This document shows positions 44,483-61,867 of a stretch of 64,000 nt of DNA, piece after piece; positions within the stretch are counted from its first letter, which is position 1; each line of letters begins with the position of its first letter. The position numbers and the translations under genes were made by a program. The notes under the pieces were generated by a model. That model made no database searches, was not told where the DNA came from, and saw nothing but the letters and a program-made list of their open reading frames with translations. Location: contig NZ_LR733556.1 in NCBI RefSeq assembly GCF_902506265.1, positions 1,493,755 through 1,557,754 on the forward strand. Reading direction: 5' to 3'. This DNA comes from Flavobacterium sp. 9AF (GTDB taxonomy: Bacteria; Bacteroidota; Bacteroidia; Flavobacteriales; Flavobacteriaceae).

Positions 44483-45658
44483 TTATCGATACTTAAGTGC
44501 AATTTGTCCTATTTGCCCTATTATTTTAAATGAATCTTTCATACTTAGTTTAGAACCATCTGCATGAATCCATCGGTTCAAAGGTTTTTCAAGAATTAAT
44601 GCTTGTGTTTCTTTTGAACCGTATATTTTTTTCATTCGCATAAAAATTTCAACATCAAAAAGCCATTTGGTAATAAATTTCTCTTGAAAAGTCTTTTCAA
44701 TAATTTCTTTGGTCATAATTTTAGCTCCACATTGCGTATCGTTGATCTCCATTCCTAACGTTTTTCTAATAATAAAATTAATTGTTTTGCTAATAATTGC
44801 TCTAGCCGATTGTTTGGTTATGTCTGCTCCCATCCTGGCCATTCTAGAACCAAAAACTAATTTATATTTTGAATTATAAATGGTTTCTGCCAATCCTTGA
44901 AAATCTTCAAAATTGGTAGATAAATCTGCATCTAAAAAACCTATATAATCAAACTGACTACTTTCAGATAAATGCAACATACCTAATCTTACCGCTTCTG
45001 CTTTTCCTCCATTTTTTTCACAATCATAAATACTAATATAATCTTCTTTTCCTTTTCGCAATTCTTGTAAAACTTCTAATGTTCTATCTTTACTTCCATC
45101 ATTTACAAAACATAAATGGTAGCCTAAATTTTTATGCACAAAGTTTTTAAAATCCTCTCCTAATAATCTTTTTTCCTCATTATAACAAGGGATAACAATC
45201 CCTACACATTTATTTTGTATATATTGCTCTTTGGTAACAGAACTTGCATTTATTTCTTTTTCAGTAGGTACACCGATTAATCTTTTTACTCTTGCGGCAA
45301 TTTCACTTAAACTCAGAGGCTTTTTCATGTAATCATCAATTCCCAAATCATAACTTCTCACGATGACTTCTTCATCTGTATTTCCAGACAAAACCATAAT
45401 TGGCGTTTTTGTGTCCATTTTAGTCTGCCTTATATATTGCACCACTTCTAAGCCTGAAGATATTTCAACGGCCTCTTGTAAATTGAGATTTCCGGTTAAA
45501 TTAATATCTACAATCGTTAGATTTGGTTTAATATCTTCATACAAAGCAATACCGTTTTCCACATTTTCTGCTTTTTGCACCTCATATCCTAAATCGGTTA
45601 GTGCTTTTTCCAGCGACAACAAAACCAGTTGTTGGTCATCAATAATTAAAATTTTCAT
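44483..45658 (-). CDS. Response-regulator receiver fused to family 2 glycosyltransferase (copy 1)
   Basis: The 391-aa protein joins two domains seldom found together. Residues 1-128 are a receiver with D7-D8, phospho-acceptor D51 ('LTIVDINL'), S91 and K113-P114. The loop after D51 is about ten residues longer than usual (D51 to G69). Residues 150-391 are a GT-A glycosyltransferase with 'VGIVIPCYNEEKRL', D187-G-S, D243-A-D245 ('GFLDADLSTNF') and 'DTQCGAKIMTKE', closest to dolichyl/undecaprenyl-phosphate glucosyltransferase-like GT2 enzymes. There are no membrane helices. Phosphorylation may switch transferase activity. The ATG at 45658 is preferred to the TTG at 45664. It is the last gene of the flippase-GT4-GT2 operon. 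Confidence 0.92.
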   Translation of the reverse strand: MKILIIDDQQLVLLSLEKALTDLGYEVQKAENVENGIALYEDIKPNLTIVDINLTGNLNLQEAVEISSGLEVVQYIRQTKMDTKTPIMVLSGNTDEEVIVRSYDLGIDDYMKKPLSLSEIAARVKRLIGVPTEKEINASSVTKEQYIQNKCVGIVIPCYNEEKRLLGEDFKNFVHKNLGYHLCFVNDGSKDRTLEVLQELRKGKEDYISIYDCEKNGGKAEAVRLGMLHLSESSQFDYIGFLDADLSTNFEDFQGLAETIYNSKYKLVFGSRMARMGADITKQSARAIISKTINFIIRKTLGMEINDTQCGAKIMTKEIIEKTFQEKFITKWLFDVEIFMRMKKIYGSKETQALILEKPLNRWIHADGSKLSMKDSFKIIGQIGQIALKYR

Positions 45659-45672
45659 AGTCAATTGGGGAA

Positions 45673-46836
45673 TTAAATCGATTTAAAACAAGCTATATAT
45701 TGATCAATAATTTTATCCATTGAAAGTGCATTAGCTGCTTCAAAATTAGCAATGGCCAATTCTTTTCTGTAAGCATTATTAGATAAAATTTTAGAAATTG
45801 CCTGAGCTAAGGATTCTTTGCTTTCTGGATTAAAAAATTCACCTCGATAACCTTCATCTTTAATCAATAGAGCTAAATCACCTAAATCGGGTAAAACAAC
45901 GGCTTTTCCATAACTACCCGCTTGATGCAACACTCCTGAGCTTCCAGTGGTGGATGTATAAGGAAAAACAACTATTGTACTTTCGGTAAAAATACGTTCT
46001 ACATCATTTTCTTCTACATAACCTGTAAAAATAAGGTTCGGAACTTCTTTATATTTTTCTGCCACACTTTCCAAATAACCTGGTGTATTTGGGCTATCTG
46101 TTCCTGCAATAATTACCTCAATAGTTTCGGAAGTAGTTTTTCTAACCATTTCGACTGCTTCAATAAGAATTTCTACTTTTTTATACGTTCCAAATTTCCC
46201 AAAAGCCATTACTTTTTTTGATCCTGATTTGTCTTCAAAATCTGGATTTTTTATAGACTCAAAGCTACCATGAGGAATTTGTATTATATTTTTTGATTTG
46301 TATTTATCTTGTAAGACCTCAACATACTTTTGAATTGTTACTACTAATTTATTTGATTTTAACAAGCACCGTGTAAGATTGGTACCAATAAAATTATAAA
46401 TTTTTTGCATTGTTTTACTTGAAGTAAAACCTGCCTTTTCTAAATCTACTTGTTCTAAAATATTATGTAATAATACCACATTTTTGTAACCCATAAGACG
46501 CAAAAACATGGGTAATAATAATCCCATCGCTGAAGGAATTTTTTTATCGCCAAATTTTACAAACTGAAGGTTAAATAAAATATAATCTGGCTTTACTTGA
46601 CGAACAGCATTTATAACTGTAAAAAAAGAAAAATAACTATTAAATTTCCAACATTCTTTAATTTGAATTTTTTCCTTATTAGGAAAATCTAATTGTTTTG
46701 GCTCTTTTGTTTTATCAGTTAATAATGTTAGTTGTGAAATTGATTCATGTAGAACAAAATTTTTTGCTAAATGATAACCATATTCGTTCAGTGTAACTTT
46801 GCTTGGTGGATAAGCAGTGAGTAGCGCTAACTTCAT
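45673..46836 (-). CDS. Family 4 glycosyltransferase (copy 1)
   Basis: A GT-B fold enzyme of 387 aa. The N-terminal acceptor domain starts 'KLALLTAYPPSKVTLNEYGY'. The C-terminal donor domain has 'KVMAFGKFGTYKKVEILIEA', 'LIFTGYVEENDVERIF' and the EX7E-like region 'STIVVFPYTSTTGSSGVLHQ'. It probably transfers a sugar from a nucleotide donor to a lipid-linked or polysaccharide acceptor on the cytoplasmic side. It is a paralogue of 55477-56685, sharing most motifs over the full length. The ATG at 46836 is chosen over the TTG at 46842. A TAAATTTG box at 46847-46840 just upstream may be an internal promoter. It is the middle gene of the 48117-44483 operon. Confidence 0.9.
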   Translation of the reverse strand: MKLALLTAYPPSKVTLNEYGYHLAKNFVLHESISQLTLLTDKTKEPKQLDFPNKEKIQIKECWKFNSYFSFFTVINAVRQVKPDYILFNLQFVKFGDKKIPSAMGLLLPMFLRLMGYKNVVLLHNILEQVDLEKAGFTSSKTMQKIYNFIGTNLTRCLLKSNKLVVTIQKYVEVLQDKYKSKNIIQIPHGSFESIKNPDFEDKSGSKKVMAFGKFGTYKKVEILIEAVEMVRKTTSETIEVIIAGTDSPNTPGYLESVAEKYKEVPNLIFTGYVEENDVERIFTESTIVVFPYTSTTGSSGVLHQAGSYGKAVVLPDLGDLALLIKDEGYRGEFFNPESKESLAQAISKILSNNAYRKELAIANFEAANALSMDKIIDQYIACFKSI

Positions 46837-46869
46837 ATTCAAATTTAATATTTCGTTTTATAACAAACA

Positions 46870-48117
46870 TTAGACTTTCTTTAAATGGTTAATAGCAAAA
46901 AAAGTAATTTGAAATAGCAACAAAACGAGCATTGCAATAATTTGCATTAGTACAACTTGCTCTAACGACTCGTGAAAAAATACAATTAAAATAACTTGTG
47001 TTAATCCTAAAACACCTGAAATAATAACTGGGATATATTTACTAATTGATAAAAAATAATAGGCAAAAATATTAGCTATAGCAAAGATTGAGGTTGCTAA
47101 AGCGTATTTCCATAATAAAAAAGCAATAGGCAAATATTTTTCTCCAAACATTAATTTCACGACTAAATTAGGAAATAAATAAGTTACTAACACTATAAAA
47201 GTAGATAAAAATGAAATATACAACACATATTTAGCCAAAATTGGAAATGTATCAAATCCATCTTTTTTTAACTGTATTACTTTAGGCAAAAGCAACATTA
47301 CAAACATCCAAGCGACAAAATAGACTACCCTACCAATTAATGCTAAAGAGGCATACAAACCAGCTTCATGGTTTTCAAAATAATGCTTCACTAATAATAC
47401 ATCACTGTTATTTATTATAATTTGTGTAAGTTCATAGAAAGCAGTTAAAGCAAAAAATTGAATGATGGATTTTGTATTTAAAATCTTATCTTCATTATTC
47501 TCCATCTCAATTTTAGAAATAATTTTTTTCTGAAAAGGAAACAATCCAAAAATGAATGAAATTAAAATACCAATAGCAATAACTACAGATGATTCTAAAC
47601 TAGGAATACAATATAGAATTGAAAAAGTTAAAATTAATCGACAAAGCATTTCAAAATAATAAGTCTTCGAAAGCCCAATTAACTCATTTTTTCCTTGATA
47701 CAAGCCTCTATTAATACTCATTGTAATGTAAAGAGGCAATCCTAAGCCAAAAATAACAAACATGGAACTGGTTTGAGTATGAAATATATCTTGTAGATTT
47801 TTACTAAAAGTCACAATAGCAACTGCAAATAAAACACCTATATACAAAGCGTTTTTATAAATAAAGTTCAAAAATAATTGTAATAGACTCTTTTCATAAA
47901 GAACAGCATATTTGGCTGTTACTATTTGGAAGGTCATTCCTATGAAAGAAAGCACTAAAAGTAAAGTAATTAATATAGCGGCATCTGCAAATTGTGAAGG
48001 CCCTAAGATTCTTCCTAAAAGTAAATTATAAACATAATTCCCTCCATTAACAAGAAGAATGGAAAGCATAAAAAAATGTTCTTTGGTTAGATTTTTGGGG
48101 CTAAACTTTAAACTCAT
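46870..48117 (-). CDS. Wzx-like polysaccharide flippase (MATE/MOP superfamily)
   Basis: The 415-aa protein is hydrophobic throughout with about 12 predicted membrane helices. It has the opening motif of the oligosaccharide flippase family: 'GGNYVYNLLLGRILGPSQFADAA', here quoted in part as GGNYVYNLLLGRILGP. It likely moves lipid-linked oligosaccharide across the inner membrane. It is the first gene of the flippase-GT4-receiver/GT2 operon, and is separated from the second receiver-GT2 gene by a terminator at 48201-48232. No Wzy-like polymerase is evident, so either the polymer is made elsewhere or the large membrane protein at 49535 supplies that role. Confidence 0.82.
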   Translation of the reverse strand: MSLKFSPKNLTKEHFFMLSILLVNGGNYVYNLLLGRILGPSQFADAAILITLLLVLSFIGMTFQIVTAKYAVLYEKSLLQLFLNFIYKNALYIGVLFAVAIVTFSKNLQDIFHTQTSSMFVIFGLGLPLYITMSINRGLYQGKNELIGLSKTYYFEMLCRLILTFSILYCIPSLESSVVIAIGILISFIFGLFPFQKKIISKIEMENNEDKILNTKSIIQFFALTAFYELTQIIINNSDVLLVKHYFENHEAGLYASLALIGRVVYFVAWMFVMLLLPKVIQLKKDGFDTFPILAKYVLYISFLSTFIVLVTYLFPNLVVKLMFGEKYLPIAFLLWKYALATSIFAIANIFAYYFLSISKYIPVIISGVLGLTQVILIVFFHESLEQVVLMQIIAMLVLLLFQITFFAINHLKKV

Positions 48118-48200
48118 TGCTCATCAATTGCAAACCTAATTTACTTATATTTTTTTAATTGAAAAACTTTTATGGTTTAATTCTTAAAAAAATGTTAAAA

Positions 48201-48232
48201 ATAAAAAAGGATGGTATTTTATAACCATCCTT
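48201..48232 (-). terminator. Terminator of receiver-GT2 copy 2
   Basis: On the minus strand AAGGATGGT (48232-48224) pairs with ACCATCCTT (48215-48207) around an 8-nt loop and runs into six T residues (48206-48201, with one A). It isolates 48260-49435 as a single-gene transcript. Confidence 0.88.
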
Positions 48233-48259
48233 CTTAAAACAAATAAACAAAAAAAAACA

Positions 48260-49435
48260 CTATTTATAATTCAATGCTATTTGACCAATTTGGCCGATTA
48301 TTTTCACAGAATCTTTCATACTAAGCTTAGAACCATCTGCATGAATCCATCTTTTTAAAGGCATTTCACATATTAACTCTTTAGCTTTTTGAGTGCCATA
48401 TGCTTTTTTCATTCGCATAAAAATCTCCACATCAAAAAGCCATTTGGTCAAGAATTTGGTCTGAAAGGTATTTTGAATAATTTCTCTCGTCATTATTTTG
48501 GCTCCACATTGTGTATCATTAATTTCCATCATTACTGTTTTTCTAATGATATAATTAACGGTTTTACTTATAATTGCTCTTGAAGATTGTTTTGTAATAT
48601 TTGCCCCCATTCTTCTCATCCTCGAACCACTCACTAGTTGAAAGTTAGAATTAGAGATGGTGTTTACTAAATCCTGAAAATCATCGAAATTTGTTGATAA
48701 ATCAGCATCTAGAAATCCTATGTAGTCATATTGATTATTTTTTGCAAGATGCACCATTCCTAATCGAACGGCTTCCGCTTTTCCTACATTTTTTTCACAA
48801 TTCAAAACACTTATTCTATCTTCATGGTCTTTGGCTAATTGATTCACAATATCTAAAGTAGAATCATTACTCCCATCATTTACAAAACACAAATGATATC
48901 CTAAATTTTTTTCAACAAACTTTTTATAGATTTCGGTTTGCAATCTTTTTTCTTCATTATAACAAGGTATGACTACTCCTACAACCATTTTCTGCAAAAT
49001 TTTATCACTTTGTTCTACCTTATAAATACTTCCAGAACCTATTAAATGTTTTACACGCAAACCTATTTCAGTTAAACTAATAGGTTTTTTCATATAATCT
49101 TCAACTCCTAAAACAAACCCTTTCTGAATTATGCTTTCATCGGTATTACCTGATAAAATCATCACGGGAGTTGAAGCTCCTCTTATTACTTTAATATGTT
49201 CAACAACATCTAACCCTGAAACAGTAAAATCAAGTCCATGGTTTGTAGTTAAAATTTCATTTTCATTTTCAGGAATATTAATATCGACAATAACTAAATC
49301 TGGCAAATGATTTTCATATTTTAAAATTCCGTTGTTGACACTTTTAGCGGTTATCACTTCGTAGCCTAAATCTATAAGACATTTTTCTAACGATAACAAT
49401 ACCAATTCTTGATCGTCTATTATTAAAATTTTCAT
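48260..49435 (-). CDS. Response-regulator receiver fused to family 2 glycosyltransferase (copy 2)
   Basis: A 391-aa paralogue of 44483-45658 with exactly the same total length. The receiver has D7-D8, D51 ('LVIVDINIPENENE'), an S-G-N in 'MILSGNTDES' and 'YMKKPISLTEIG'. The loop after D51 is longer still (D51 to G74, about 15 extra residues). The GT2 part has 'VVGVVIPCYNEEKRL', 'NDGSNDSTLD', D-A-D in 'GFLDADLSTNF', and the conserved tail 'RWIHADGSKLSMKDS'. It is transcribed alone: its own promoter (49474-49481) and terminator (48201-48232) flank it. Likely role: phosphorylation-controlled sugar transfer, perhaps with different input from copy 1. The ATG at 49435 is chosen over the TTG at 49444. 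Confidence 0.92.
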   Translation of the reverse strand: MKILIIDDQELVLLSLEKCLIDLGYEVITAKSVNNGILKYENHLPDLVIVDINIPENENEILTTNHGLDFTVSGLDVVEHIKVIRGASTPVMILSGNTDESIIQKGFVLGVEDYMKKPISLTEIGLRVKHLIGSGSIYKVEQSDKILQKMVVGVVIPCYNEEKRLQTEIYKKFVEKNLGYHLCFVNDGSNDSTLDIVNQLAKDHEDRISVLNCEKNVGKAEAVRLGMVHLAKNNQYDYIGFLDADLSTNFDDFQDLVNTISNSNFQLVSGSRMRRMGANITKQSSRAIISKTVNYIIRKTVMMEINDTQCGAKIMTREIIQNTFQTKFLTKWLFDVEIFMRMKKAYGTQKAKELICEMPLKRWIHADGSKLSMKDSVKIIGQIGQIALNYK

Positions 49436-49534: not shown

Positions 49535-52500
49535 ATGAAAAAACCATTTCTTGAGACGGTAAAAATTCATCGATATTATCTTTATTCTTATATTTACAAT
49601 AGAAAGATTACAAAATTTTTGAAAGAAAGATCAAACAAATACCTAATTGTTGCATTACTATTTGGAATAACCTTCCATGGAAGCGCTATTTTCTTTACTT
49701 TAGAAAATACCTATGATGCATTAATTCATCTCTTTTTTGGAAATCATTATGCTACAAGTTGGTTTGAACCATGGAATTATAGTTGGTACACTGGTTTTAC
49801 CGTTATGGGTTATCCTCCATTAGTGCATCAAACCATAGGCATCTTATCTTATATAGGAGGATTAAAATTTGGATTATTTACAGTAGCGATTGTAGCAACC
49901 ATTCTCTTTACTACAGGTGTTTTTAGATACACCGTTTTAATTACTGGAAATAGAACTGTAGCAGGATATGCCTCAATTGTAGCCATATTATCTTCGTCTT
50001 TTGTTGAAACCCTTCATGTTTTTGGACAATTACCCAGCATTGTTGGAATTTCTGTCTTAATGCATGCTTTACCAGAAATTTATCTGTACATTAAAACAGG
50101 AAAATGGAAATATTTTTTCACCTCTTGTTCTTTAATTGCAGTAACTGTTTGTTCGCATCATGTTACGCCATTATTTGGAATGGTCTTTTTTATTTCTCCA
50201 TTAATAGGAATGACCATTATGGATGTTTCTAGAGAAAAAGTTAATTCGGAAAAAGAAATAACTTTTATTGTTTTTTTTAAAAGTTTTATATCATTAGTAA
50301 AGCGAATTGTTCTCTTTTGTGGAACGGCAGTTTTCTTAATTGTGTTTTGTATTCTGCCTTATTGGATAAATTCGAAAGCTAACCCTATTAACCAAGTACC
50401 TATTCCTCATGGGAGTAGAGATAATTTCCTAGAAACTACTTCTTCTGGATTGGTTTTTTTCTTAATTCCTTGGGGCATTCTATTATTTATTTTACCTTAT
50501 ATTTTCTATCGTTATTTTTCTAAAAGATACATTTTTTTCGGCTTATCTCTAACCTTATTAACCATTTTAGGAACAGGAGGAACAACTCCAATACCCATAA
50601 AAATATTAGGAAATAATGCTTTTAATATTCTTACTTTAGACCGTTTCACTTTATGGGCATCCATTATGAGTTTACCCATTTTTGGTGAGTTTGTTTATCG
50701 ATTTGTAGAAGGAGATTTAAAAGTAGCTTTACAAGAAAAATATGGAACTGTTTATCATCGCATTTTAGGCGGTATATTTGCAGGTTGCTTTTTATTTTTT
50801 TCGATTTTTACCATCACATTAGGCTATTTTAGACCTTTACAACCCGATAAAATTAACTTTTTACCTATCGTAAATTTTTTGAACCAAGACCAGCACGATC
50901 AATGGCGTTTTTTACCATTAGGTTTTGGAGATCAAATGGCATTTCTATCTACGCAAACAAAAGCCATGACTGTTGATGGAAATTATCATTCTGCTCGAAG
51001 ATTACCAGAACTAACTTCAAGAGCAGTTGAACGATTAGAAAATTCAAAATTTAGAGGAATTGAAGGAATTGGTTCTCTTCAACAGTTTTTGACCGTTCCT
51101 GAAAAATACAATTTAAAATATGTTTTTTCTAATGATAAATTTTATGATCCTATTCTTTATTTCTGTGGTTGGCATAGATTATCTCAATTAGAAAATGGCA
51201 TTATGGTGTGGGAAAAATTAAATGTTCCTCCCATCTCTAAAATTTTACCTAAAGAAGACGTTTCAATTGTATTAAAATTAATGTGGGGAATTGTTCCTTT
51301 ACTCACAGTATTAATTGCTTTTATTCTAAATATTCAAATGATATGGTACCAAGCTTTAAAAATAAAACCAATTGAAAGACCCGCTTTTCAATATCATGGA
51401 ATTGGTTATATTAATTTTAAAAATGGGCTTATTAAATTATTACACATTTGGGCCATATTTATGACGCTACTTTTTTTGTATGGAATTTATAGAGCCTACA
51501 TTAAACATGCCTATCAAATCAGTCCAGAAAATGTAGTAAAATCCTATTACGATGCGCTAGACTATAAGCATTTTGAAAAAGCACATTCCTTTGTTGTCCC
51601 AGATAAGCATTATCCTTTATCGCAATTTATGCTAGAGGTTTCAGTATCCGATGGAATTTTAAATTCATATGGAAAATTAGACGCAATTAAAACAGAAATA
51701 AAATATATTTCTAAAAATAAAGCAGTAGTAATTGCAGAAACAAAATGGATAACACCTTTAGAAATTATCGAAAGAAAATATAGTCATGAAGTTGTAAAAA
51801 TAAAAGGAAAATGGTATCTCATCCCAGAAAAGAAAGATACCGATATACCACCTGACGAATTTATGTCTAAAAACAATACTTTCTATTACAAGCAAGGTAG
51901 AAGAAAAATTACTACACAGCAAACCTATCATGAAGATGTGCTTCGTCAACCCGATTTAGAAATAATTAAAGCTAATTTAATCTATTTTGAAAACCAATAT
52001 ATGCTTATAGGAGAAGTACAAAACATAGACAATGTACCCGCAGATGTAGTATTAAAAGCTACATTATATGACAAAAACGACAAAACTTTAGCTTCCTTCA
52101 ACTCAAAATATGTTATCAAACATAAATTAATGCCTAAAGAAACTACAAGTTTTAAAGTGAATTTTGAAGATATTGCATGGTTGAAAAATACAGAAACTAA
52201 ACCTACCAGTTTTAATCCAAATGAATTTACAAATAAAGCATTAAAGACTACACCTGTTACCTTTGATATTCAAAGTGCTGGAAATGTAGTAACAACCGAT
52301 TTATATACTTCTGTAGCACTTTCAGAATTAGCAATAGATAAAAAAAGAATTCAAGGCACCTTATTTAATTATGGTATTCAAGAAGTTACTGTTCCTGAAA
52401 TTTTAATCTCTTATTATAATTCTAAAAAAGAACTAATTTATGTAGATCATAAATTTATAAAAGAAGGTATTCGCATTCAAAGAAAACAATACTTTACATA

Positions 52501-52708
52501 TGAATTCTTAGACCTTTCAAAGTTACTAAGTATAAAATATAATGTAGAAAATTGTTTTGTAAATGGCATTTCTAACCAAGCAATTGCAAGAGACGTGATA
52601 CCAAAAAGAAATACTATATTAGAGGATAATTATTTGCAAAAAATAGACGGCAAAGGCTTTTCATATATAAAAATTGAATTAAACAACTATATAGGTAACC
52701 CAAAATGA
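49535..52708 (+). CDS. Large GT-C-like (PTPS-related) membrane protein with NTF2-like and FxLYD-like domains
   Basis: The 1057-aa protein has an N-terminal half with about ten membrane helices. The periplasmic loop after the first helix ('NTYDALIHLFFGNHY', 'WFEPWNYSWYTGFTVMGYPP') is the pattern of 6-pyruvoyl-tetrahydropterin-synthase-related membrane proteins, a GT-C-like group. After a further helix near residue 650 comes an NTF2/DUF4878-like domain ('ENVVKSYYDALDYKHFEKAH', to about 770), then Ig-like segments of the FxLYD kind ('YMLIGEVQNIDNVPADVVLK'). It probably uses a lipid-linked sugar to build or modify an exported glycan. It heads a three-gene operon, overlapping the next gene by 4 nt (ATGA). 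Confidence 0.8.
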   Translation: MKKPFLETVKIHRYYLYSYIYNRKITKFLKERSNKYLIVALLFGITFHGSAIFFTLENTYDALIHLFFGNHYATSWFEPWNYSWYTGFTVMGYPPLVHQTIGILSYIGGLKFGLFTVAIVATILFTTGVFRYTVLITGNRTVAGYASIVAILSSSFVETLHVFGQLPSIVGISVLMHALPEIYLYIKTGKWKYFFTSCSLIAVTVCSHHVTPLFGMVFFISPLIGMTIMDVSREKVNSEKEITFIVFFKSFISLVKRIVLFCGTAVFLIVFCILPYWINSKANPINQVPIPHGSRDNFLETTSSGLVFFLIPWGILLFILPYIFYRYFSKRYIFFGLSLTLLTILGTGGTTPIPIKILGNNAFNILTLDRFTLWASIMSLPIFGEFVYRFVEGDLKVALQEKYGTVYHRILGGIFAGCFLFFSIFTITLGYFRPLQPDKINFLPIVNFLNQDQHDQWRFLPLGFGDQMAFLSTQTKAMTVDGNYHSARRLPELTSRAVERLENSKFRGIEGIGSLQQFLTVPEKYNLKYVFSNDKFYDPILYFCGWHRLSQLENGIMVWEKLNVPPISKILPKEDVSIVLKLMWGIVPLLTVLIAFILNIQMIWYQALKIKPIERPAFQYHGIGYINFKNGLIKLLHIWAIFMTLLFLYGIYRAYIKHAYQISPENVVKSYYDALDYKHFEKAHSFVVPDKHYPLSQFMLEVSVSDGILNSYGKLDAIKTEIKYISKNKAVVIAETKWITPLEIIERKYSHEVVKIKGKWYLIPEKKDTDIPPDEFMSKNNTFYYKQGRRKITTQQTYHEDVLRQPDLEIIKANLIYFENQYMLIGEVQNIDNVPADVVLKATLYDKNDKTLASFNSKYVIKHKLMPKETTSFKVNFEDIAWLKNTETKPTSFNPNEFTNKALKTTPVTFDIQSAGNVVTTDLYTSVALSELAIDKKRIQGTLFNYGIQEVTVPEILISYYNSKKELIYVDHKFIKEGIRIQRKQYFTYEFLDLSKLLSIKYNVENCFVNGISNQAIARDVIPKRNTILEDNYLQKIDGKGFSYIKIELNNYIGNPK

Positions 52709-53943
52709 AACTGAAATACAGTTATATTACTTTTTGTTTATTCTTTTTGTTGTTCTTTGTTTCAGCAACAGAACAAGGTATTTCTTTTGCAAAAAATGAA
52801 AAATTTACGTGCCTCACTTCGCAAAAGCAATTTATTGCAGGAAAACCTATAATACTCGAATTTACAAACAACCATTACAAACAAATGCAACTTGTCGTTT
52901 TACATTCGTATGGAAAAACTTTAGTTAACGGAATTGCAACAAACAATAAAATTCAGTTCGCACTACCCAAAAATTATTATAACAAAACCGGATTAGTGAG
53001 CTGGTTTTTACTTATTGGAAAAGAAGAAAAAGCAAAAGGAACATTTCAAATCCTTCCAAATGATCAATCATCCACTCAACTAGAAACCTATCTTGGACCA
53101 CCAAGTACATTAGTAGGTGATGGGCATTTTGTAATGTTTGTAACCATTCCTACTGATATTTTAGACAATCCCAAATTACCCAATACGGAAGTAACTATAA
53201 AAGACCAATTTTTAAGCAATATTCGTTCTGAAAACACTAAAACTAAAGATTTTATTGCTTGGAAAAACATCTATTCTCCCACTAAATCGGGGATAGTCTT
53301 AATTTCTGCCAATTGTAATGAAACCCAAACTAAGGAATTTGATGCGGTTATTTATCCCTCAATCGCAACCGATTTTATAATTTCTGCCAAGAGAAATCAT
53401 GAATTTGCAGATGGTAATCAAATAACCCAATTAATTACTTCTGAGATAAAAGATAAATTTGGCAATACAGTAAGCGATGGAACATTTGTTTCTTTTTTAA
53501 TAACTACTAATGAGGGTGCTATACTCAGAACCTTTGGCACAACTCTAAATGGAAGCGCTAAAGGAGAAATTTTACATCCAGATAAAGACGACAGCTATCG
53601 TATTACAGCTTTTGTTAATGGAATATGCCAAAGCAATACTATTCAACTTAATTACAAGCCTATCAATCCAAGTGTGTCTTATTCATTATCTAAAGGAAAC
53701 CGAATTATAGAAGTGGGTCCAATAAAAAGTTTCATGAATCAATTGGTTCCAGATGGTATTAAAGTGAGCTTACGTATTTATCATAAAAACAAATTAATCG
53801 ATACCTTAATTGAGAACAGTTTGAAAGGAAAAGTACGCTTTAAGCTTTCTCCAGATTTTTATCCTGAAAAAGAATACCAATTTGAAATTGAAACCTTAGG
53901 ACGAACCATTAAAACCTCAGAAATACATGTCGCTAATAAATAA
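52705..53943 (+). CDS. Exported Ig-like (Big_1-type) protein, 412 aa
   Basis: The product has a signal peptide ('FCLFFLLFFVSATEQG') and a beta-sandwich mature part. The middle region 'LITSEIKDKFGNTVSDGTFV' and 'SAKGEILHPDKDDSYRITAF' resembles a bacterial Ig-like domain (Big_1, invasin-type). No catalytic motif and no sorting domain. It overlaps the preceding gene by 4 nt and the GH5-like gene by 17 nt, so the three products are translationally coupled and probably act as one periplasmic or envelope complex. It may be a scaffold or glycan-binding subunit; family membership beyond the Ig fold is not clear. Confidence 0.75.
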   Translation: MKLKYSYITFCLFFLLFFVSATEQGISFAKNEKFTCLTSQKQFIAGKPIILEFTNNHYKQMQLVVLHSYGKTLVNGIATNNKIQFALPKNYYNKTGLVSWFLLIGKEEKAKGTFQILPNDQSSTQLETYLGPPSTLVGDGHFVMFVTIPTDILDNPKLPNTEVTIKDQFLSNIRSENTKTKDFIAWKNIYSPTKSGIVLISANCNETQTKEFDAVIYPSIATDFIISAKRNHEFADGNQITQLITSEIKDKFGNTVSDGTFVSFLITTNEGAILRTFGTTLNGSAKGEILHPDKDDSYRITAFVNGICQSNTIQLNYKPINPSVSYSLSKGNRIIEVGPIKSFMNQLVPDGIKVSLRIYHKNKLIDTLIENSLKGKVRFKLSPDFYPEKEYQFEIETLGRTIKTSEIHVANK

Positions 53944-55480
53944 CAAAAATAGTTATCGTATTTTTTTACTCGCATCATTTATTGCAGTAAATATTTTTAT
54001 TTTGTTTGCCCTTAGTGAAATTTTAGGATATCTAAACGAAGGTGCCGATCGAAGCACCATGTTACATTTAGACAAAGTAACCACAAACACATACTTACCT
54101 AAAATACAATGGTCTAGCTTAGAAAACCCAGGTCGTGAAATGGAAAAACAAACTTTAGAAACTATAGAAAAGCATTATTTATTTTCATGGTATGTAAAAA
54201 ATAATGCCTTACAAAATAATTCTTTAGAAGGTATAGAAGACTATTTTACTGATAATCCTAGAAAGACTTTAGATACAATTATCCAAAGTAATAAAGAAAA
54301 AAATATTTCTATTGAAACCACTACTTTAACACATAACCCTAAATTAGAGTTTTATAGTGAAGATGGACAATTAATTGTTTTTACAGATGAAAATGTTATA
54401 GAGTTTCAGAACATTTATGAAAACAAAACATTTATTACTTCTATAAAAGATACAGCAACTTATAAAGTAATGATGTTATTAGAAGATGGCTTTTGGAGAA
54501 TTAGACATTGTGAAAGAATGGAAAAAATGCCAACCCATAAAGAAGAAACAAAAATTGACAGAGCATTTGAAATTAAGAATAAAAATATCTTAAAAAAGGG
54601 AACTCCTTTTATAATAAAAGGTATTAATTATTACCCTAAAAATTCGGCTTGGGATATGTATGGCAACTTATTTAATACAGATACTATTGCTTCTGATTTT
54701 GCTATCATTAAAAAAGCAAAACTAAACACGATTCGAATTTTTGTTCCTTATGAAGATTTTGGTAAAGGAGAGGTAAAAATAGAAAAAATAGAAAAATTAA
54801 AACAAGTTTTAGATTTGGCTAAAGCCAATGATTTAGCAGTAATTGTCACTTTATTTGATTTTTATAGCGATTATACTATAATCAATTGGACGCTTTCACA
54901 AAGACATGCAGAAAGTATTGTTTCTTTATGTAAAGAGTATGATAATATTTTGGCTTGGGATATAAAAAACGAACCTGATTTGGATTTTAAATCTAGAGGA
55001 AAACAAAATGTATTGCCATGGTTAGAAGAAATGATTCATGTAGTAAAACAAACTGACCCTAACCATTTAGTAACTGTTGGCTTTGCAACTATACAGTCGG
55101 GAGAAATTTTACAAGATAAGGTAGATTTTATCTCTTTTCATTATTATGAAGATTTATCATTTTTTAAAGACAAATATAAACATTTAGAAGACATTACAAA
55201 GAAACCAATTGTTATACAAGAGTTTGGATTATCATCCAATAGAGGCTTTTGGAGTTGGTTTGGAAATTCGGAAAAAAATCAAGCGAGTTATCATGAACAA
55301 ATGCAAGCTATATTTAAAGAAAAACAAATTTCATTTTTATCTTGGACGTTATATGATTTCCCTGAAGTTCCAAATCAGGTGGCAGGGAAATGGCCTTGGA
55401 TAAAAAACAAACAGAAAAATTTTGGTTTTATCGATGTTAACGGAAATCCCAAACCCTCTTTTAAATACATATCAAATTAA
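53927..55480 (+). CDS. Membrane-anchored GH5-like glycoside hydrolase
   Basis: The 517-aa protein has one N-terminal membrane helix (about 12-33, 'FLLASFIAVNIFILFALSEI') and no cleavage site, so it is anchored facing the periplasm. Residues about 90-210 form an NTF2-like domain. Residues 225-517 are a TIM barrel of the GH5 type, with 'FIIKGINYYPKNSAWDMY', acid/base E349 in 'WDIKNEPDLD', and nucleophile E432 in 'IVIQEFGLSS'. It should cut or transglycosylate a beta-glycan. Such hydrolases accompany polysaccharide export systems (BcsZ in cellulose, PslG in Psl), trimming the growing polymer. It is the last gene of the 49535-55480 operon and converges with the GT4 gene at 55477, overlapping it by 4 nt. 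Confidence 0.85.
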   Translation: MSLINNKNSYRIFLLASFIAVNIFILFALSEILGYLNEGADRSTMLHLDKVTTNTYLPKIQWSSLENPGREMEKQTLETIEKHYLFSWYVKNNALQNNSLEGIEDYFTDNPRKTLDTIIQSNKEKNISIETTTLTHNPKLEFYSEDGQLIVFTDENVIEFQNIYENKTFITSIKDTATYKVMMLLEDGFWRIRHCERMEKMPTHKEETKIDRAFEIKNKNILKKGTPFIIKGINYYPKNSAWDMYGNLFNTDTIASDFAIIKKAKLNTIRIFVPYEDFGKGEVKIEKIEKLKQVLDLAKANDLAVIVTLFDFYSDYTIINWTLSQRHAESIVSLCKEYDNILAWDIKNEPDLDFKSRGKQNVLPWLEEMIHVVKQTDPNHLVTVGFATIQSGEILQDKVDFISFHYYEDLSFFKDKYKHLEDITKKPIVIQEFGLSSNRGFWSWFGNSEKNQASYHEQMQAIFKEKQISFLSWTLYDFPEVPNQVAGKWPWIKNKQKNFGFIDVNGNPKPSFKYISN

Positions 55481-56685
55481 ATATATTCTGCTAGACGATG
55501 TTTTTCAATAGCTACTTCTGCTTTAATTTGATAAAATTCTTTTAAAAACATGTCTGTAATGCATTCCATAGATAATGCTTTTGCTGCTTTATAATTTGCT
55601 TTTGCAATACTTATCCTATAAACATCATCAACTAATAAATTTGAAATTGCGTTAGCTAAAGAAGATACACTTGTAGGATCAAAAAACGCCCCTTTATATC
55701 CTTCTTCTTCTACTAATAAAGCCAAATCTCCTAAATTTGGCATCACCACTGCTTTGCCATAACTTCCTGCTTGATGTAACACACCCGAACTTCCAGTTGT
55801 AGATGTGTATGGAAAAACAACCATAGCGCTTTCAGAAAAAATTTTTTCAACCTCATCTTCTGGTACATAACCTGTAAAAATTAATCCCTTCACATGAGCG
55901 TATTTCTTTTTAATAGTTTCTAAATAACCAGGAGTATTTGGGCTATCTGTACCTGCGATAACCAATTCAATAGTATCATGACAGGTTTTTCTTGCTGCTT
56001 CTACTGCTTCAATGAGTAATTCTACTTTTTTATAAGTCCCAAATTTGCCAAAAGTCATAATTTTTTTCGGTCCTTCAGCCAATTTAAAATTAGGTTCTTT
56101 GAGAGTTTCAAAACTTCCATGTGGAATTAAAACTACATTTTTAACTTTGTATTTATTATTTAAAATGGCTACATATTTATTAATCGTCACGGAAACTCTA
56201 TGTGCTTTTAAAAGACAGCTCGTTAAAGTAGTTCCTATAAAATTATATATTTTTTGAACCATTCTGTTTTTAGAAAAGCCAGCTTGTTCTAAATCGACTT
56301 GTTCTAAAATATTATGCATTAGAACCATAGTTTTAAAACCAAGAATCCTTAACAATAGAGGAAGTAATAATCCTAAAGCAGCAGGGATTTTCTTATCGCC
56401 AAACTTTACAAATTGCAAATTAAAAAGAATCATTTCGGGTTTCTCTTTAAGTACTTGTTTTATTACATGAAATAAGTTAAAATAATGATTAAAAGACCAA
56501 CACTCTCTCACCGTTACTTTTTCACTTTTATAAAAATCAAGCTGTTTCGGTTGTTCTGTTTTATCACAGAGTAAAATAACTTCGTCAATTTCCTCTTTTT
56601 TAACAAAATTCTTCACTAAATGATAACCATATTCATTTAAAGTAACTTTACTAGGAGGAAAAGCGGTTAAAACTGCTATTCTCAT
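55477..56685 (-). CDS. Family 4 glycosyltransferase (copy 2)
   Basis: This 402-aa GT-B enzyme is a close paralogue of 45673-46836: 'AVLTAFPPSKVTLNEYGYHL', 'ILFNLQFVKFGDKKIPAALG', 'KIMTFGKFGTYKKVELLIEA', and 'MVVFPYTSTTGSSGVLHQAG' recur almost unchanged. It has an extra 15 residues at the C-terminus. It faces the GH5-like gene and their 3' ends overlap by 4 nt, so both coding regions share the stop area. The two GT4 copies bracket the membrane/GH5 operon, which suggests duplication within the locus and stepwise addition of two similar sugars. Confidence 0.9.
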   Translation of the reverse strand: MRIAVLTAFPPSKVTLNEYGYHLVKNFVKKEEIDEVILLCDKTEQPKQLDFYKSEKVTVRECWSFNHYFNLFHVIKQVLKEKPEMILFNLQFVKFGDKKIPAALGLLLPLLLRILGFKTMVLMHNILEQVDLEQAGFSKNRMVQKIYNFIGTTLTSCLLKAHRVSVTINKYVAILNNKYKVKNVVLIPHGSFETLKEPNFKLAEGPKKIMTFGKFGTYKKVELLIEAVEAARKTCHDTIELVIAGTDSPNTPGYLETIKKKYAHVKGLIFTGYVPEDEVEKIFSESAMVVFPYTSTTGSSGVLHQAGSYGKAVVMPNLGDLALLVEEEGYKGAFFDPTSVSSLANAISNLLVDDVYRISIAKANYKAAKALSMECITDMFLKEFYQIKAEVAIEKHRLAEYI

Positions 56686-56723: not shown

Positions 56724-57026
56724 TTAGGCTGCTCTATTTTGTAACATATAATTTAACTTTTGTGTTTGAAACAGCTTAGTAATTTTTTTATTCTTATCAC
56801 TAACGATGTAAAAAACTTTATTTTTTGCCAAAGCAATTTTATACAATTGAATTAAGGTATCAAAACTAGATTTATCCATCTCTACCACTTTGTTAAGAGA
56901 AACAATAATAAAACTAGATTGCATTAATAAGGCTTCGAAAAAGTTCTTTAAAGATTTAGCATTTTCTAAGGTTAAGTTCCCATTGATTTCTAAAATGCCT
57001 GCATTGTCTTGTATTTGTAGTGCCAT
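56724..57026 (-). CDS. STAS-domain protein (copy 1)
   Basis: A 100-aa protein consisting of a single STAS domain of the anti-sigma-factor-antagonist type: 'AGILEINGNLTLENAKSLKN' strands and helix, then 'VVEMDKSSFDTLIQLYKIAL'. The position equal to the phosphorylated serine of SpoIIAA (just after the Asp) is Lys, but two serines follow it. It may bind a partner switch or an anti-sigma-like kinase. It lies 39 nt downstream of its tandem paralogue at 57066 and shares a nearly identical leader with it. It is followed by the GT4 gene on the same strand, so the three may be one transcript. Confidence 0.82.
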   Translation of the reverse strand: MALQIQDNAGILEINGNLTLENAKSLKNFFEALLMQSSFIIVSLNKVVEMDKSSFDTLIQLYKIALAKNKVFYIVSDKNKKITKLFQTQKLNYMLQNRAA

Positions 57027-57065: not shown

Positions 57066-57368
57066 TTAAAAAATATCTCTACGTAATGCATAGAACATTT
57101 TTTGTTCTCTAAATAAATCTCTTACTTTTTTGTTTTCTGAACCGATAATATAAAAAAACTGATTTTTTGACATTGCCTTTTTATATAAGCATCCTAAACA
57201 ATTTACCGCTTGTTTATCAATATCTTTAATTTTATCCAATGAAAGGGTTACTGGTTTATTATTATCAATTAGAGCTTCAAAGTAACTCTTCATTGATTCT
57301 GCATTTTGAGCATTTAATAAGCCATTAATTTCATAAATACCTGAATTGTTTGTAATTTTAAGTGCCAT
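57066..57368 (-). CDS. STAS-domain protein (copy 2, no serine)
   Basis: A 100-aa paralogue of 56724-57026 with the same start 'MAL' and the same STAS layout ('SGIYEINGLLNAQNAESMKS', 'DIDKQAVNCLGCLYKKAM'). Here both serines of copy 1 are replaced (DKQA in place of DKSS), so phosphorylation at that loop is not possible. One STAS with and one without acceptor serines next to each other is a pattern expected if one is regulated and the other constitutive. It is divergent from the outer-membrane export gene at 57518. Confidence 0.82.
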   Translation of the reverse strand: MALKITNNSGIYEINGLLNAQNAESMKSYFEALIDNNKPVTLSLDKIKDIDKQAVNCLGCLYKKAMSKNQFFYIIGSENKKVRDLFREQKMFYALRRDIF

Positions 57369-57517: not shown

Positions 57518-59590
57518 ATGAACATTAGTATTCCAAAAGCGGTTTTATTCTCATTATTTTTTTACATCACAAGTTTTGCTCAAAACATGCAAGAAGGTTT
57601 TTCTTATTTAGAAAATGGAGATTTTGAGAAAGCAGAAGTTTTCTTTGAAAATACCCTAAAGGAGTTTCCAACTAATAAAACCGCACGTTTGTGTTATGCT
57701 CGTGCCATAGGTTTAAATAAACAACCTGAAAATGCGCTATCCCTTTTCGTTCAATTACTTAAAGAATACCCTGAGGATTTAGAAATCCAACTCAATTATG
57801 CTGAAGCATTACTTTGGAACAAAAAATTTGAAGAGGCGAAAAGCTTTTATGAAAAATTGATAACTAATAATCCAGAAAATTTTGTTGCGCATTTAGGATA
57901 TGCAAATACACTTTCCAATTTAAAAATCTATGATAGTGCTTTATATCATGTAAATAAGGCATTAACCATTTCAAATCAAAATTCTGGTGCATTGCTTTCT
58001 AGGAAATATATAAAGTTAGGTCTTGCTAATGAAAAAATAAGTTCAAAAAACTATGAAGAAGCAGAAAGACTGTATGATGAAATTTTAATTGATTTTCCAA
58101 ATGATAAAGAAACACTACTTAACAAAGCCAATCTGTTTTTAATTTCAAAACAAATTAAAAAAGGAGAAGCAGTTTACCAATTGTTAGCACAGGAAAATCC
58201 TAATCTTTCGCTAAACGGACTTTCTCTTTTAGCTCATTTAGAAAATAAAGACAAAAAAGCTTTAGCAATAGCCACAACATCTTTAAAACAAAGTGATACA
58301 ATTTCTGAAAAAACTATTGTAAAACAAACCCAAGAAAGATATGTACAAGCGTTGATTTGGAATCGTAAATATAAGGAAGCAAGCCAAGAAATTGATACGT
58401 TGTCTCAAAAATATCCCAATGAAAATTGGGTAATGGCACTATCAGCCACATTAGCAATTTATCAAAGTAATTTTAACCAAAGTATTCAAGATTATGAAAC
58501 CATTTTAAAAAATGACGATCATTCTTTTGATGGGAATTTAGGTATTGCAAATGCTTATTATGCTTCAAGAAAAGTGCATAAAGCTTACGAAGCGGTTTAT
58601 AAAACATTAGAAATTTTCCCTAATCAAAATGATGCGATGCAGTTTTTAAAAAAACTAAACGCAGAACACACTCCTTTTGTAGAAGAAAAAATGAGTTATT
58701 CCTTTGACAATGGAAATAATATTGCTTTTGCATCTTTAACTCAATTAACCATACCTACTTCATTAAAGTGGTCATTTTACTCTTCTTATCAATATAGAAA
58801 AACAGAAAACTCGGTTACAAAAGTATTTGCCACTACAAATGATTTTATGATTGGAACAACTTACAAGTTTCATCCCAAAGCAAGTTTTACATTACATTCT
58901 GGCATTTCAAACGCAAGTAGTTTTACAAATTCATACAGTCAATTGCTATTACATTCTTTTTTTAAAGTTAAACCCATGCCTTTACAGGACTTAGAAGTAG
59001 GTTATAAAAGAGAAATGCAAAATTTTAATTCCGATTTGATTGATAAAGAAATTATTAGCAATCATTTCTATACAAATTATAATATTAGTACAAACTTTAA
59101 ATTAGGCTGGTTTACCCAATATTTTTACACTACACAATCCGATTCGAATACACGAAATTTATTATTTACTTCTTTATACTATAATTTTTTAGTTAAACCC
59201 GTTTTAAAAGGCGGAATTAATTATCAATATATAAGCTTTAAAAATCAAGTTCCTACCGATTATTTTAGTCCGAAAAAATTTCATGCTTATGAAGTTTTCA
59301 TTGATTTTTTGAAAGATGAAAATAGTACCGAAGTGAAACGTTTTTTTTACAACCTAAATGGAGCTACTGGTTTTCAATTTATTGAGGAGAATGACAAGCA
59401 ATGGACATATCGTGTACAAGGGAAATTAGGTTATAAATTTTCTGATCGATTAATAGCTAATGTATATGGTTTACGTAGTAATATAGCTTCTACTACTGCA
59501 GCAGGTTTTACTTATAATGAATTAGGCATACGTTTAAAATGGTACATTTGTAAAGAACCTATTTTTAAAACTAAAAAAACCGAAGAGTAA
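57518..59590 (+). CDS. TPR / outer-membrane beta-barrel exopolysaccharide export protein
   Basis: The 690-aa protein has a signal peptide ('ALFSLFFYITSFAQ') and TPR repeats over about residues 20-380 ('GDFEKAEVFFENTLKEFPTN', 'KKFEEAKSFYEKLITNNPEN', 'KKGEAVYQLLAQENPNL'). A beta-barrel of alternating strands follows to the end ('FHPKASFTLHSGISNASSFT', 'ANVYGLRSNIASTTAAGFTY'). This is the arrangement of PgaA and BcsC, which guide polymer through the periplasm and outer membrane. It probably exports the glycan made by the neighbouring enzymes. It is divergent from the STAS genes and ends in a bidirectional terminator. Confidence 0.85.
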   Translation: MNISIPKAVLFSLFFYITSFAQNMQEGFSYLENGDFEKAEVFFENTLKEFPTNKTARLCYARAIGLNKQPENALSLFVQLLKEYPEDLEIQLNYAEALLWNKKFEEAKSFYEKLITNNPENFVAHLGYANTLSNLKIYDSALYHVNKALTISNQNSGALLSRKYIKLGLANEKISSKNYEEAERLYDEILIDFPNDKETLLNKANLFLISKQIKKGEAVYQLLAQENPNLSLNGLSLLAHLENKDKKALAIATTSLKQSDTISEKTIVKQTQERYVQALIWNRKYKEASQEIDTLSQKYPNENWVMALSATLAIYQSNFNQSIQDYETILKNDDHSFDGNLGIANAYYASRKVHKAYEAVYKTLEIFPNQNDAMQFLKKLNAEHTPFVEEKMSYSFDNGNNIAFASLTQLTIPTSLKWSFYSSYQYRKTENSVTKVFATTNDFMIGTTYKFHPKASFTLHSGISNASSFTNSYSQLLLHSFFKVKPMPLQDLEVGYKREMQNFNSDLIDKEIISNHFYTNYNISTNFKLGWFTQYFYTTQSDSNTRNLLFTSLYYNFLVKPVLKGGINYQYISFKNQVPTDYFSPKKFHAYEVFIDFLKDENSTEVKRFFYNLNGATGFQFIEENDKQWTYRVQGKLGYKFSDRLIANVYGLRSNIASTTAAGFTYNELGIRLKWYICKEPIFKTKKTEE

Positions 59591-59792: not shown

Positions 59793-60506
59793 TTAAAGTA
59801 AATTTAAGCGTTTCATTAGTTCGGGTCTATTGCTTCGACTAACTGGAATCACTTCTTTTCCAATTAAAACGCTATTATCTTCAATATCAATAATTTTATG
59901 CGTATTAATTATAAAAGAGCGATGTACTTTTAAAAATAAATTATGAGGTAATTTATCTTCAATTTTTTTAAGTGTAGAATGTACGATATAGTTTTTCTGA
60001 TCTGTTTTAATATGTATATAATCTCCTTTAGCTTCCACAATACTAACCGATTCAAATTCTATTTTAATAAGTCTCCTATCTATATTTACATAAAACTCGG
60101 TAGCACTGTCTTCAGGCATATTGGTTTCTGTAGTTATTTGTTTTGAAACAATATGACTACTACTTGCTTTATGGATGGCTTTTTGAAAACGTTCTTCCGT
60201 TAAAGGTTTAACTAAATAATCGACAATACAATCATATTCAAAAGCTTCAATTGCAAAATTTTTATCTGAGGTAATTAATATTATTTTAGGCGGATTTTTT
60301 ATGGTTTGAATAAAATCAAATCCAGTAAAATCTGGCATATGAATATCTAAAAAAATTAAATCTATTTCATTTTGATTTAGAAATTTTATGGCTTGCATGG
60401 CATTGGAAAAATCGCCCACTAAACTTAATTCTTTATACTTAGATATCATTTGAGCAATAATTGCTCTTGCCATTTCTTCATCATCAATGATAATACAGTT
60501 CATCAT
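59793..60506 (-). CDS. LytTR-family response regulator
   Basis: The receiver domain (1-118) has D8-D9, phospho-acceptor D54 ('DLIFLDIHMPDFTG') and K-P ('DYLVKPLTEERF'). The LytTR domain (about 140-237) has 'VSIVEAKGDYIHIKTDQKNY' and 'LFLKVHRSFIINTHKIIDIE'. It is a transcription factor that should end the phosphorelay encoded upstream; the Hpt gene stops 10 nt before its start. The start could be at 60506 or at the second ATG, 60503. Targets probably include the polysaccharide genes, but no operator was proven. Confidence 0.94.
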   Translation of the reverse strand: MMNCIIIDDEEMARAIIAQMISKYKELSLVGDFSNAMQAIKFLNQNEIDLIFLDIHMPDFTGFDFIQTIKNPPKIILITSDKNFAIEAFEYDCIVDYLVKPLTEERFQKAIHKASSSHIVSKQITTETNMPEDSATEFYVNIDRRLIKIEFESVSIVEAKGDYIHIKTDQKNYIVHSTLKKIEDKLPHNLFLKVHRSFIINTHKIIDIEDNSVLIGKEVIPVSRSNRPELMKRLNLL

Positions 60507-60516
60507 GTTTTACAAT

Positions 60517-60834
60517 TTATAAAGCGTTCACAAAATCGGTTATATTTTTTAAAATGAGTTCAAAATCATTTTTTAAATCTTCCCTATTTTGTTTTAAATT
60601 TTCTTCAAATGTTTCAGCAAGATAATAACTTTTTTCAAGACCTAAAATAGATATTTTATGTTTTAATTTATGAACCGCTTGTGCGGCAGCTAGAAAATTA
60701 GCGTTGTACATTTGTCTTTCGTAATTTTCGATTTCTTCTGGCAATTCTTTTTTAAGAATAGCGATCATTTTGTTTTTAAATTCTAAACTATCTCCCGATA
60801 ATTCATTAATATATGTAAGATTAGGCTGTTCCAT
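60517..60834 (-). CDS. Histidine phosphotransfer (Hpt) protein, 105 aa
   Basis: A four-helix Hpt domain with the phospho-acceptor H55 in 'AQAVHKLKHKISILGL', the usual HxLKG motif with H in place of G. It shuttles phosphate between receivers. I start it at the ATG at 60834, one base after the histidine kinase stop codon; a longer frame to 60906 lies wholly inside the kinase gene and adds no Hpt sequence. Hpt proteins normally work with hybrid kinases or several receivers. No hybrid kinase is present, so its partners here may be the LytTR regulator and the receivers of the two receiver-GT2 proteins. Confidence 0.88.
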   Translation of the reverse strand: MEQPNLTYINELSGDSLEFKNKMIAILKKELPEEIENYERQMYNANFLAAAQAVHKLKHKISILGLEKSYYLAETFEENLKQNREDLKNDFELILKNITDFVNAL

Positions 60835-60835
60835 T

Positions 60836-61867
60836 TTACTTAGAAATTGTGAAGAAGAAAGTAGAACCAAGACCTTCTTGGCTTTCGAGCCATATTTCTC
60901 CATCATAATAATTAACTATTTTTTTTACTATCGAAAGACCTATCCCAGAAGAAGGCGTGTTGCTTTGCAACTTAGTAAATACGTTAAAAATTTTATGAAA
61001 ATAATTTTCAGCGATTCCTATTCCGTTATCTTTCACAAAAAATTCAAAAGAATCTTTATTCTCTTTGGAACCAATTTCAATAATAATTTCTTCCTTATCA
61101 CTATATTTAATTGCATTTTGTATTAAATTTTGAAAAACTTGCTTAAATCGCCAAGCATTACCATATAATTTAGGTAAATTTTCTTGAATTTTAAAGTTAA
61201 CATTCTTAGGTATATTCATTATCCTTAAAACTTCTTCAATAATATGGTTTATATTAAGCCATCGATCCTCAGATTCTAGTTTGTCAATAGTAGAATAATC
61301 TAGAATACCTTTAATCAATAAATCCATTTTTTCTACATTTGACAACACTAGATTTAATGAATTTAAACAATTTTCACCCATTCGTTCTTTGTTATCTTCA
61401 ATAACCCAATTAATCAACGTATCAATATTTCGTAAAGGTGCTTTTAAATCGTGTGAAACCACATGTGCATATTCATTTAATTCTTGATTTTGAGTTTCTA
61501 GATTTTTCAATAATTCTTCCCGTTGATTGGTCATCAAAATGATTTCTTCCGCTTGCTTTTTCAAATATTCTGTTTGATTAAACTCTTTTTCATCGGCTAA
61601 CTTAGTGGCATCTAAATTGATTGATTTTAAAATATTTGATAAATTTTCATTTACTTCTTTTAAACTGTTGGCCTCTTCTCTAAGCTTTTTATTCGCTTCA
61701 AAAAGTTCGTCTGAACTTATTTTCATAGCGCGTTGTAACATACTCAACTGATCCTCATAATTTCCATACGATTCATTAACCGCATTAAAAAATGGCTGTA
61801 AGCTTTGTAGAACTTCAGGATTCGTTTTTATTAGTTTGTTTATTTGTCTGTTTAGGAGTGATTTCAT
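60836..61867 (-). CDS. Soluble histidine kinase with coiled-coil N-terminus
   Basis: The 343-aa kinase lacks any signal peptide, membrane helix or recognisable sensor domain. Residues 1-125 are a long coiled coil ('SSDELFEANKKLREEANSLK'). H139 lies in 'VVSHDLKAPLRNID' (HisKA), and the HATPase has 'NLIQNAIKYSDKEE', 'VKDNGIGIAENYFHKIF' and 'SGIGLSIVKKIV'. It probably takes its input from the FIST protein, whose stop codon overlaps its start by one base. Its phosphate likely goes to the LytTR regulator, directly or through the Hpt, which it precedes by one base. Confidence 0.93.
   Translation of the reverse strand: MKSLLNRQINKLIKTNPEVLQSLQPFFNAVNESYGNYEDQLSMLQRAMKISSDELFEANKKLREEANSLKEVNENLSNILKSINLDATKLADEKEFNQTEYLKKQAEEIILMTNQREELLKNLETQNQELNEYAHVVSHDLKAPLRNIDTLINWVIEDNKERMGENCLNSLNLVLSNVEKMDLLIKGILDYSTIDKLESEDRWLNINHIIEEVLRIMNIPKNVNFKIQENLPKLYGNAWRFKQVFQNLIQNAIKYSDKEEIIIEIGSKENKDSFEFFVKDNGIGIAENYFHKIFNVFTKLQSNTPSSGIGLSIVKKIVNYYDGEIWLESQEGLGSTFFFTISK

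Follow-up and report, generated by a model that had tools for sequence, protein, structure and literature searches.

A receiver-glycosyltransferase fusion as proposed phosphorylatable output of a haem-sensor phosphorelay at a flavobacterial exopolysaccharide locus

Does a phosphorelay act on a glycosyltransferase directly, through a receiver domain carried on the same polypeptide? The question is raised by two REC-GT2 genes, a and b, of Flavobacterium sp. 9AF, each of which joins an N-terminal receiver (REC) to a C-terminal domain of glycosyltransferase family 2 (GT2). They lie in a stretch of 64,000 nucleotides of contig NZ_LR733556.1, the whole of which was analysed and is referred to here as the window (Table 1). 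We propose, as a reading for which belief and doubt are evenly balanced, that REC-GT2 is the directly phosphorylatable output of a haem-sensor phosphorelay controlling exopolysaccharide production.

Each gene is a single unbroken frame of 391 codons from ATG to stop. Both Pfam domains are found well above the cut-off, Response_reg at 1.9e-19 in a and 1.2e-16 in b, and Glycos_transf_2 at 2.7e-22 and 6.8e-24, respectively. Between the two paralogues, identity is 62% for the receiver and 74% for GT2. The initial annotation had described two 391-residue proteins with a complete receiver and a complete GT2 domain, and this description is borne out, with the genes on the minus strand: D7, D8, D51, K113-P114, the NDGS motif (D187) and the DAD motif (residues 243–245) are present in both fusions. 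The possibility, raised in the same annotation, that a frameshift had joined two separate genes is ruled out, as is an assembly artefact, by the single frames and by full-length homologues with 54–66% identity in dozens of other genomes. The receiver-GT2 fusion is genuine and conserved.

Across 51 fusion proteins, D7, D51, S91, K113 and P114 are present in every member and D8 in 50, and the phospho-acceptor site is complete in 50 of the 51. The acidic pair, phospho-acceptor Asp, Ser/Thr and Lys of a receiver stand on one polypeptide with an enzyme domain, and the structure model of REC-GT2 (pLDDT 77.6, pTM 0.60) gives a standard receiver fold (Z about 20). A vestigial or phosphorylation-independent receiver, a reading consistent with the receiver-free GT2 at the same locus in other genera, is highly improbable, considering that the phosphorylation residues are invariant in the 51 proteins whereas the linker and the loop drift. 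This loop follows D51. It had been annotated as enlarged by about 10 and 15 residues, and the lengths are exact: the next conserved Gly is 17 and 22 residues from D51 in the window fusions and 7 in most homologues (+10 and +15). The enlargement is not a family-wide feature, however, and was rejected as such; the loop has 7 residues in 46 of the 51 fusions and 15 in three others, and ranges from 14 to 24 residues of variable sequence in the Flavobacterium-lineage copies examined. Because it is mostly confined to that lineage, varies in sequence and is predicted to be disordered (modelled at pLDDT < 50 in the window copy), the enlarged loop is not considered part of the general mechanism.

The distribution of the fusion was examined in 199 genomes of the window's family, nearly one per genus, 46 of which contain it. 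Named carriers include Flavobacterium, Maribacter, Cellulophaga, Tenacibaculum, Winogradskyella, Aquimarina, Zunongwangia and Psychroserpens. Full-length fusions were found only in this family in a class sample of 295 genomes, and a phylum sample of 395 yielded one genome of another family with a fusion (G612). The fusion is carried by many marine and freshwater flavobacteria. A histidine phosphotransfer (Hpt) protein accompanies it. Within the 199-genome sample, an Hpt homologue is present in 53 of the 54 genomes that carry TM1057, a 1057-residue membrane protein whose gene adjoins GT2 in nearly all homologous loci, versus 31 of the 145 others, and in 45 of the 46 fusion-bearing genomes (Fisher 5e-25 and 4e-20, values that are not exact probabilities because the genomes are related). 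The Hpt gene lies within 30 kb in 43 of these 53 genomes, on other draft contigs in 9, and 2.3 Mb away in one. FIST, histidine kinase and LytTR genes are present at most loci, so that the tracking with FIST, Hpt and LytTR genes suggested by the initial annotation is found.

It could be argued that Hpt is present only for transcriptional control of the locus by LytTR, and that REC-GT2 receives its phosphate from another kinase or from acetyl phosphate. LytTR adjoins Hpt at most loci, and loci with receiver-free GT2 have the relay too. However, in four Aquimarina genomes REC-GT2 and a lone Hpt-like gene form a two-gene unit, 11–39 bp apart, with no relay kinase, polysaccharide or LytTR genes in the stretch around the pair, and in four Flavobacterium genomes (F. 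hydatis group) REC-GT2 is directly beside Hpt (210–268 bp), where a tblastn search of the surrounding stretches, as distinct from the whole genomes, found no LytTR. We regard this explanation as quite unlikely. It is noted that the short Aquimarina Hpts fall below the Pfam cut-off (E 0.001–0.04), yet are 48–52% identical to the window Hpt. Two further genomes (G113 and G077) have REC-GT2 near the relay without the polysaccharide genes.

The relay genes past the TPR gene are in the order LytTR, Hpt, histidine kinase, FIST, histidine kinase, H-NOX and lone receiver; in Flavobacterium sp. 9AF itself, the HNOBA/PAS kinase, H-NOX and the 137-residue receiver extend beyond the end of the window. Certain loci are without FIST or other relay members. 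As listed, the frame of Hpt overlaps that of the kinase, and an internal ATG is probably the Hpt start. An HNOB domain with the proximal His and YxSxR, a FIST domain, a kinase and Hpt are all found, as in an H-NOX/NosP nitric oxide (NO) relay, and in the H-NOX set the proximal-His pattern is present in 34 of 34 members and YxSxR in 32. From these families and motifs we infer that NO may be the relay signal. At three loci (L125, L130 and L134, in genomes G024, G087 and G131) H-NOX, histidine kinase, Hpt and LytTR are followed by five genes for exported proteins, one of them large and possibly usher-like, in place of the polysaccharide genes.

No GGDEF domain was found in any of 39 carrier genomes in a search that was positive in control genomes and covered GGDEF but not EAL domains. 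Relay output via diguanylate cyclases is therefore unlikely in these 39 carriers, and cyclic di-GMP (c-di-GMP) was rejected as the output. The genomic evidence suggests that the relay controls REC-GT2 directly, not via gene expression or c-di-GMP.

The GT2 domain of the model has the GT-A fold of dolichyl-phosphate mannose synthase (DPMS, Z 21), GtrB (20.6) and ArnC (19.8), with 21–28% identity over about 215 residues (212–221), and 26–28% for DPMS. PF13641 is below the cut-off in copy a and above it in copy b, and PF00535 scores much better in both. The motif set DTQCG-K ... W-FDVE is one that we take to be ALG5/DPMS-like. DPMS, GtrB and ArnC carry C-terminal membrane helices, which are not found in every member of the wider polyprenyl-phosphate GT2 class. 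No transmembrane segment was found in the REC-GT2 protein, and nothing in it corresponds to the membrane helices that solved structures of bacterial and archaeal enzymes of this class show. Since these helices are not universal and the segment is absent, the claim made here is that GT2 works like DPMS, GtrB and ArnC, not that it is a member of their group. Judging from the model, GT2 is probably a polyprenyl-phosphate-sugar synthase for the neighbouring GT-C-like enzyme, and because of this resemblance it more likely sets donor supply than polymerisation. The annotated output through a polysaccharide glycosyltransferase holds insofar as a GT2 enzyme is fused to the receiver, with its role shifted to donor supply.

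GT2 might instead be an ordinary repeat-unit glycosyltransferase acting on a lipid-linked oligosaccharide, still gated by the receiver. It adjoins two GT4 genes and a Wzx-like flippase gene, and Pfam yields generic GT2 families only, but its best-covering structural neighbours are DPMS, GtrB and ArnC, and the divergent gene next to it encodes a GT-C-like partner, of the kind that usually consumes polyprenyl-phosphate sugars. A repeat-unit enzyme is on balance unlikely. The partner, TM1057, has no clear Pfam match (weak PTPS_related matches in 15 of 30 members, best E 0.0028), and a PDB sequence search with it gave no match. Its structure model is of low confidence (pLDDT 58.6); of the best 24 structures matched, almost all are GT-C enzymes, including STT3/AglB (Z 16.6), DPY19 (11.8), AftA (11.2) and PMT (11.2). 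GT-C enzymes commonly use polyprenyl-phosphate sugars, and the proposed pairing of GT2 and TM1057 as source and user of the donor is drawn from this.

The locus is a conserved exopolysaccharide (slime-polysaccharide) gene cluster. On the minus strand from 49435, the order is REC-GT2 b, Wzx-like, GT4 and REC-GT2 a, separated by 142, 27 and 14 bp, and 99 bp lie between REC-GT2 b and the divergent TM1057 gene. About 50 neighbourhoods share REC-GT2 or GT2, TM1057, the Ig-like and GH5 genes, GT4 and Wzx, and in many of them STAS and TPR genes come next. Membership in the Pel or poly-N-acetylglucosamine (PNAG) systems was rejected, there being no PelG match and only PgaA and PgaC_IcaA matches far below the cut-off. 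FpgA, a GT2 of F. psychrophilum whose loss gives a phenotype (PMC4293000), is a different gene encoding 319 residues without a receiver. A 1519-residue protein with a type IX secretion sorting tail (window 39795–44354, minus strand) adjoins the locus and is not conserved in other loci; 14 of the 59 neighbourhoods have a DUF4407 protein close by, in the window at 38380–39480 (plus strand).

A receiver on an active enzyme need not gate catalysis. Phosphorylation may alter the partner binding or localisation of GT2 (for example with Wzx, GT4 or the GT-C machinery), or the receiver may be a phosphate sink that tunes the flow from Hpt to LytTR. Two fusions (L092_9 in G113 and L093_11 in G117) combine an intact receiver with a degenerate GT2 without the DAD and QCG motifs, and are apparent pseudo-glycosyltransferases. 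Lone receivers are found with the relay, and one genome has such a receiver beside the fusion as well: a 123-residue protein, 56% identical to the fusion receiver and encoded directly upstream of the fusion gene (L063:4279-4650, minus strand). The GT2 catalytic motifs are nevertheless intact in 48–50 of the 51 fusions, indicating that catalysis is normally retained alongside the receiver, and a receiver without effect on catalysis seems to us improbable.

In a quick tree, with long branches flagged, the fused GT2 domains group in a single clade (SH-aLRT 99) that excludes the unfused GT2s of the same locus. In the TM1057 tree (FastTree, supports not examined) unfused loci are scattered among fused ones, and all of 20 degenerate GT2 fragments, mostly adjoining a fused gene, are closer to the unfused lineage. 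These three observations suggest that the receiver-bearing GT2 displaced a receiver-free version, possibly with exchange back. Simple receiver loss as the origin of the unfused genes is disfavoured, because the tree places the GT2 domains of fused and unfused genes in separate lineages. Genes of about 160 codons beside the fusion (e.g. L054, L056, L061, L063 and L066), considered as lone receivers and rejected, are degenerate N-terminal halves of a receiver-free GT2 that lack DxD; they may be relics, or pseudoenzymes that still serve some function.

In the mechanism that we propose, H-NOX and FIST/NosP, presumably sensing NO, would set the activity of two histidine kinases, both of which would charge one Hpt protein. 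Hpt would then give phosphate to LytTR, for transcription, and to D51 of REC-GT2. The GT2 domain, soluble or peripheral, would make a lipid-phosphate-linked sugar on the cytoplasmic side, as its fold and motifs imply, and the GT-C-like TM1057 would draw on this sugar at the periplasmic face for assembly or decoration of the polymer, which would be made by the GT4 and Wzx gene products and exported by the TPR protein. Phosphorylation of the receiver would start or stop the supply of donor, and neither fresh gene expression nor c-di-GMP would be required. The transfer from Hpt to D51, its effect on catalysis, the lipid-phosphate-sugar product and its use by TM1057 are the steps that we infer. 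Somewhat more tentatively, at slightly less than even confidence, we suggest a general principle: where bacteria have no detectable GGDEF proteins, the direct end point of a haem-sensor (NO) phosphorelay is a polyprenyl-phosphate-sugar synthase, phosphorylation meters the GT-C donor, and lineages have swapped the receiver-free and receiver-bearing enzymes at one locus, adding or removing control.

Several points weigh against this mechanism. The fused genome G100 has its Hpt 2.3 Mb off. In 11 of the 54 locus-bearing genomes GT2 is receiver-free and Hpt is still present; a working locus thus does not require the receiver, and in these genomes LytTR could be sufficient by itself. The degenerate GT2 of L092_9 and L093_11 implies that a receiver can be retained for another purpose. 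NO as the ligand would rest on family membership, GT2 substrates cannot be read from sequence, and the TM1057 structure model is weak.

Table 1. Features of the fusion locus and the relay (window coordinates unless a locus handle is given)
Feature	Position	Strand	Remarks
REC-GT2 fusion a	44483..45658	-	391 aa; receiver 1-129, linker ~130-150, GT2 ~151-391
GT4 glycosyltransferase	45673..46842	-	between the two fusions
Wzx-like polysaccharide flippase	46870..48117	-	
REC-GT2 fusion b	48260..49435	-	391 aa; paralogue of a
TM1057	49535..52708	+	divergent 1057-aa membrane protein, GT-C-like
Exported Ig-like protein	52705..53943	+	412 aa
GH5-family glycoside hydrolase-like protein	53927..55480	+	
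GT4 glycosyltransferase, second	55477..56685	-	
STAS-domain small protein	56724..57026	-	
STAS-domain small protein	57066..57368	-	
TPR protein	57518..59590	+	partial below-cutoff likeness to PgaA export porin
LytTR response regulator	59793..60506	-	transcriptional arm of relay
Hpt phosphotransfer protein	60517..60906	-	proposed phosphodonor of REC-GT2
Histidine kinase	60836..61867	-	
FIST (NosP-like) sensor	61867..62997	-	
PAS/HNOBA histidine kinase	63001..64000	-	896 aa; C-terminal part in window
H-NOX protein	L139:6450-6992		past window end; HNOB 2.7e-50
Lone receiver	L139:6994-7407		past window end; 137 aa

Biofilm and capsule polysaccharides are made in abundance by Bacteroidota, and no GGDEF protein was found in the carriers checked. 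A glycosyltransferase with its own receiver, genomically paired with an Hpt relay, makes post-translational control of a polymer testable with purified proteins, for which the receiver-free enzyme at the same locus is a natural built-in comparison. With NO as the likely signal, such control would parallel the NO control of biofilms in Proteobacteria, where NosP/H-NOX relays with the same sensor families and relay logic regulate c-di-GMP (PMC8738867), in contrast to the GGDEF-free carriers studied here. H-NOX and FIST neighbourhoods were noted earlier (PMC8738867).

The nearest wiring is that of Vibrio fischeri, in which H-NOX, HahK and the Hpt domain of SypF act on syp, with SypE and SypA. There, too, a haem NO sensor, a kinase and an Hpt domain govern an exopolysaccharide locus that includes a STAS protein, with control at the transcriptional and post-transcriptional levels. 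The outputs differ, being SypG (transcription) and SypE, a serine kinase/phosphatase acting on the STAS protein SypA, with no receiver-glycosyltransferase fusion (PMC8738867, PMC4517449). In flavobacteria, PorX is a well-studied response regulator of Bacteroidota with an enzymatic output, a REC-alkaline-phosphatase-superfamily protein phosphorylated at Asp54 with dimerisation, but its phosphodiesterase output controls type IX secretion and it has no glycosyltransferase (PMC11320123). DPMS, GtrB and ArnC share the fold of the GT2 domain and have no receiver, and in the fusion no transmembrane segment was found. The literature searched yielded no description of a bacterial REC-GT2; its scope did not extend to the Galperin reviews of response-regulator output domains, where a mention is possible. 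The initial annotation knew of no characterised receiver-GT2 fusion. A fusion of REC with a BcsA-like glycosyltransferase had already been described, MTH_548 of Methanobacteriaceae, although in the parts of that paper that deal with it the protein is given without characterisation or activity data (PMC5847659). As presented there, the MTH_548 type resembles the flavobacterial fusion in combining a receiver with a GT-A-type glycosyltransferase and in its narrow phyletic distribution, and differs in being archaeal, with one or two REC domains and a BcsA-like PF13641 domain (PMC5847659). The flavobacterial fusion has Glycos_transf_2 as its best family and a DPMS-like fold, belongs to a bacterial exopolysaccharide locus that has an Hpt relay of its own, and adds a bacterial REC-GT2 to the REC-glycosyltransferase fusions already known in methanogens.

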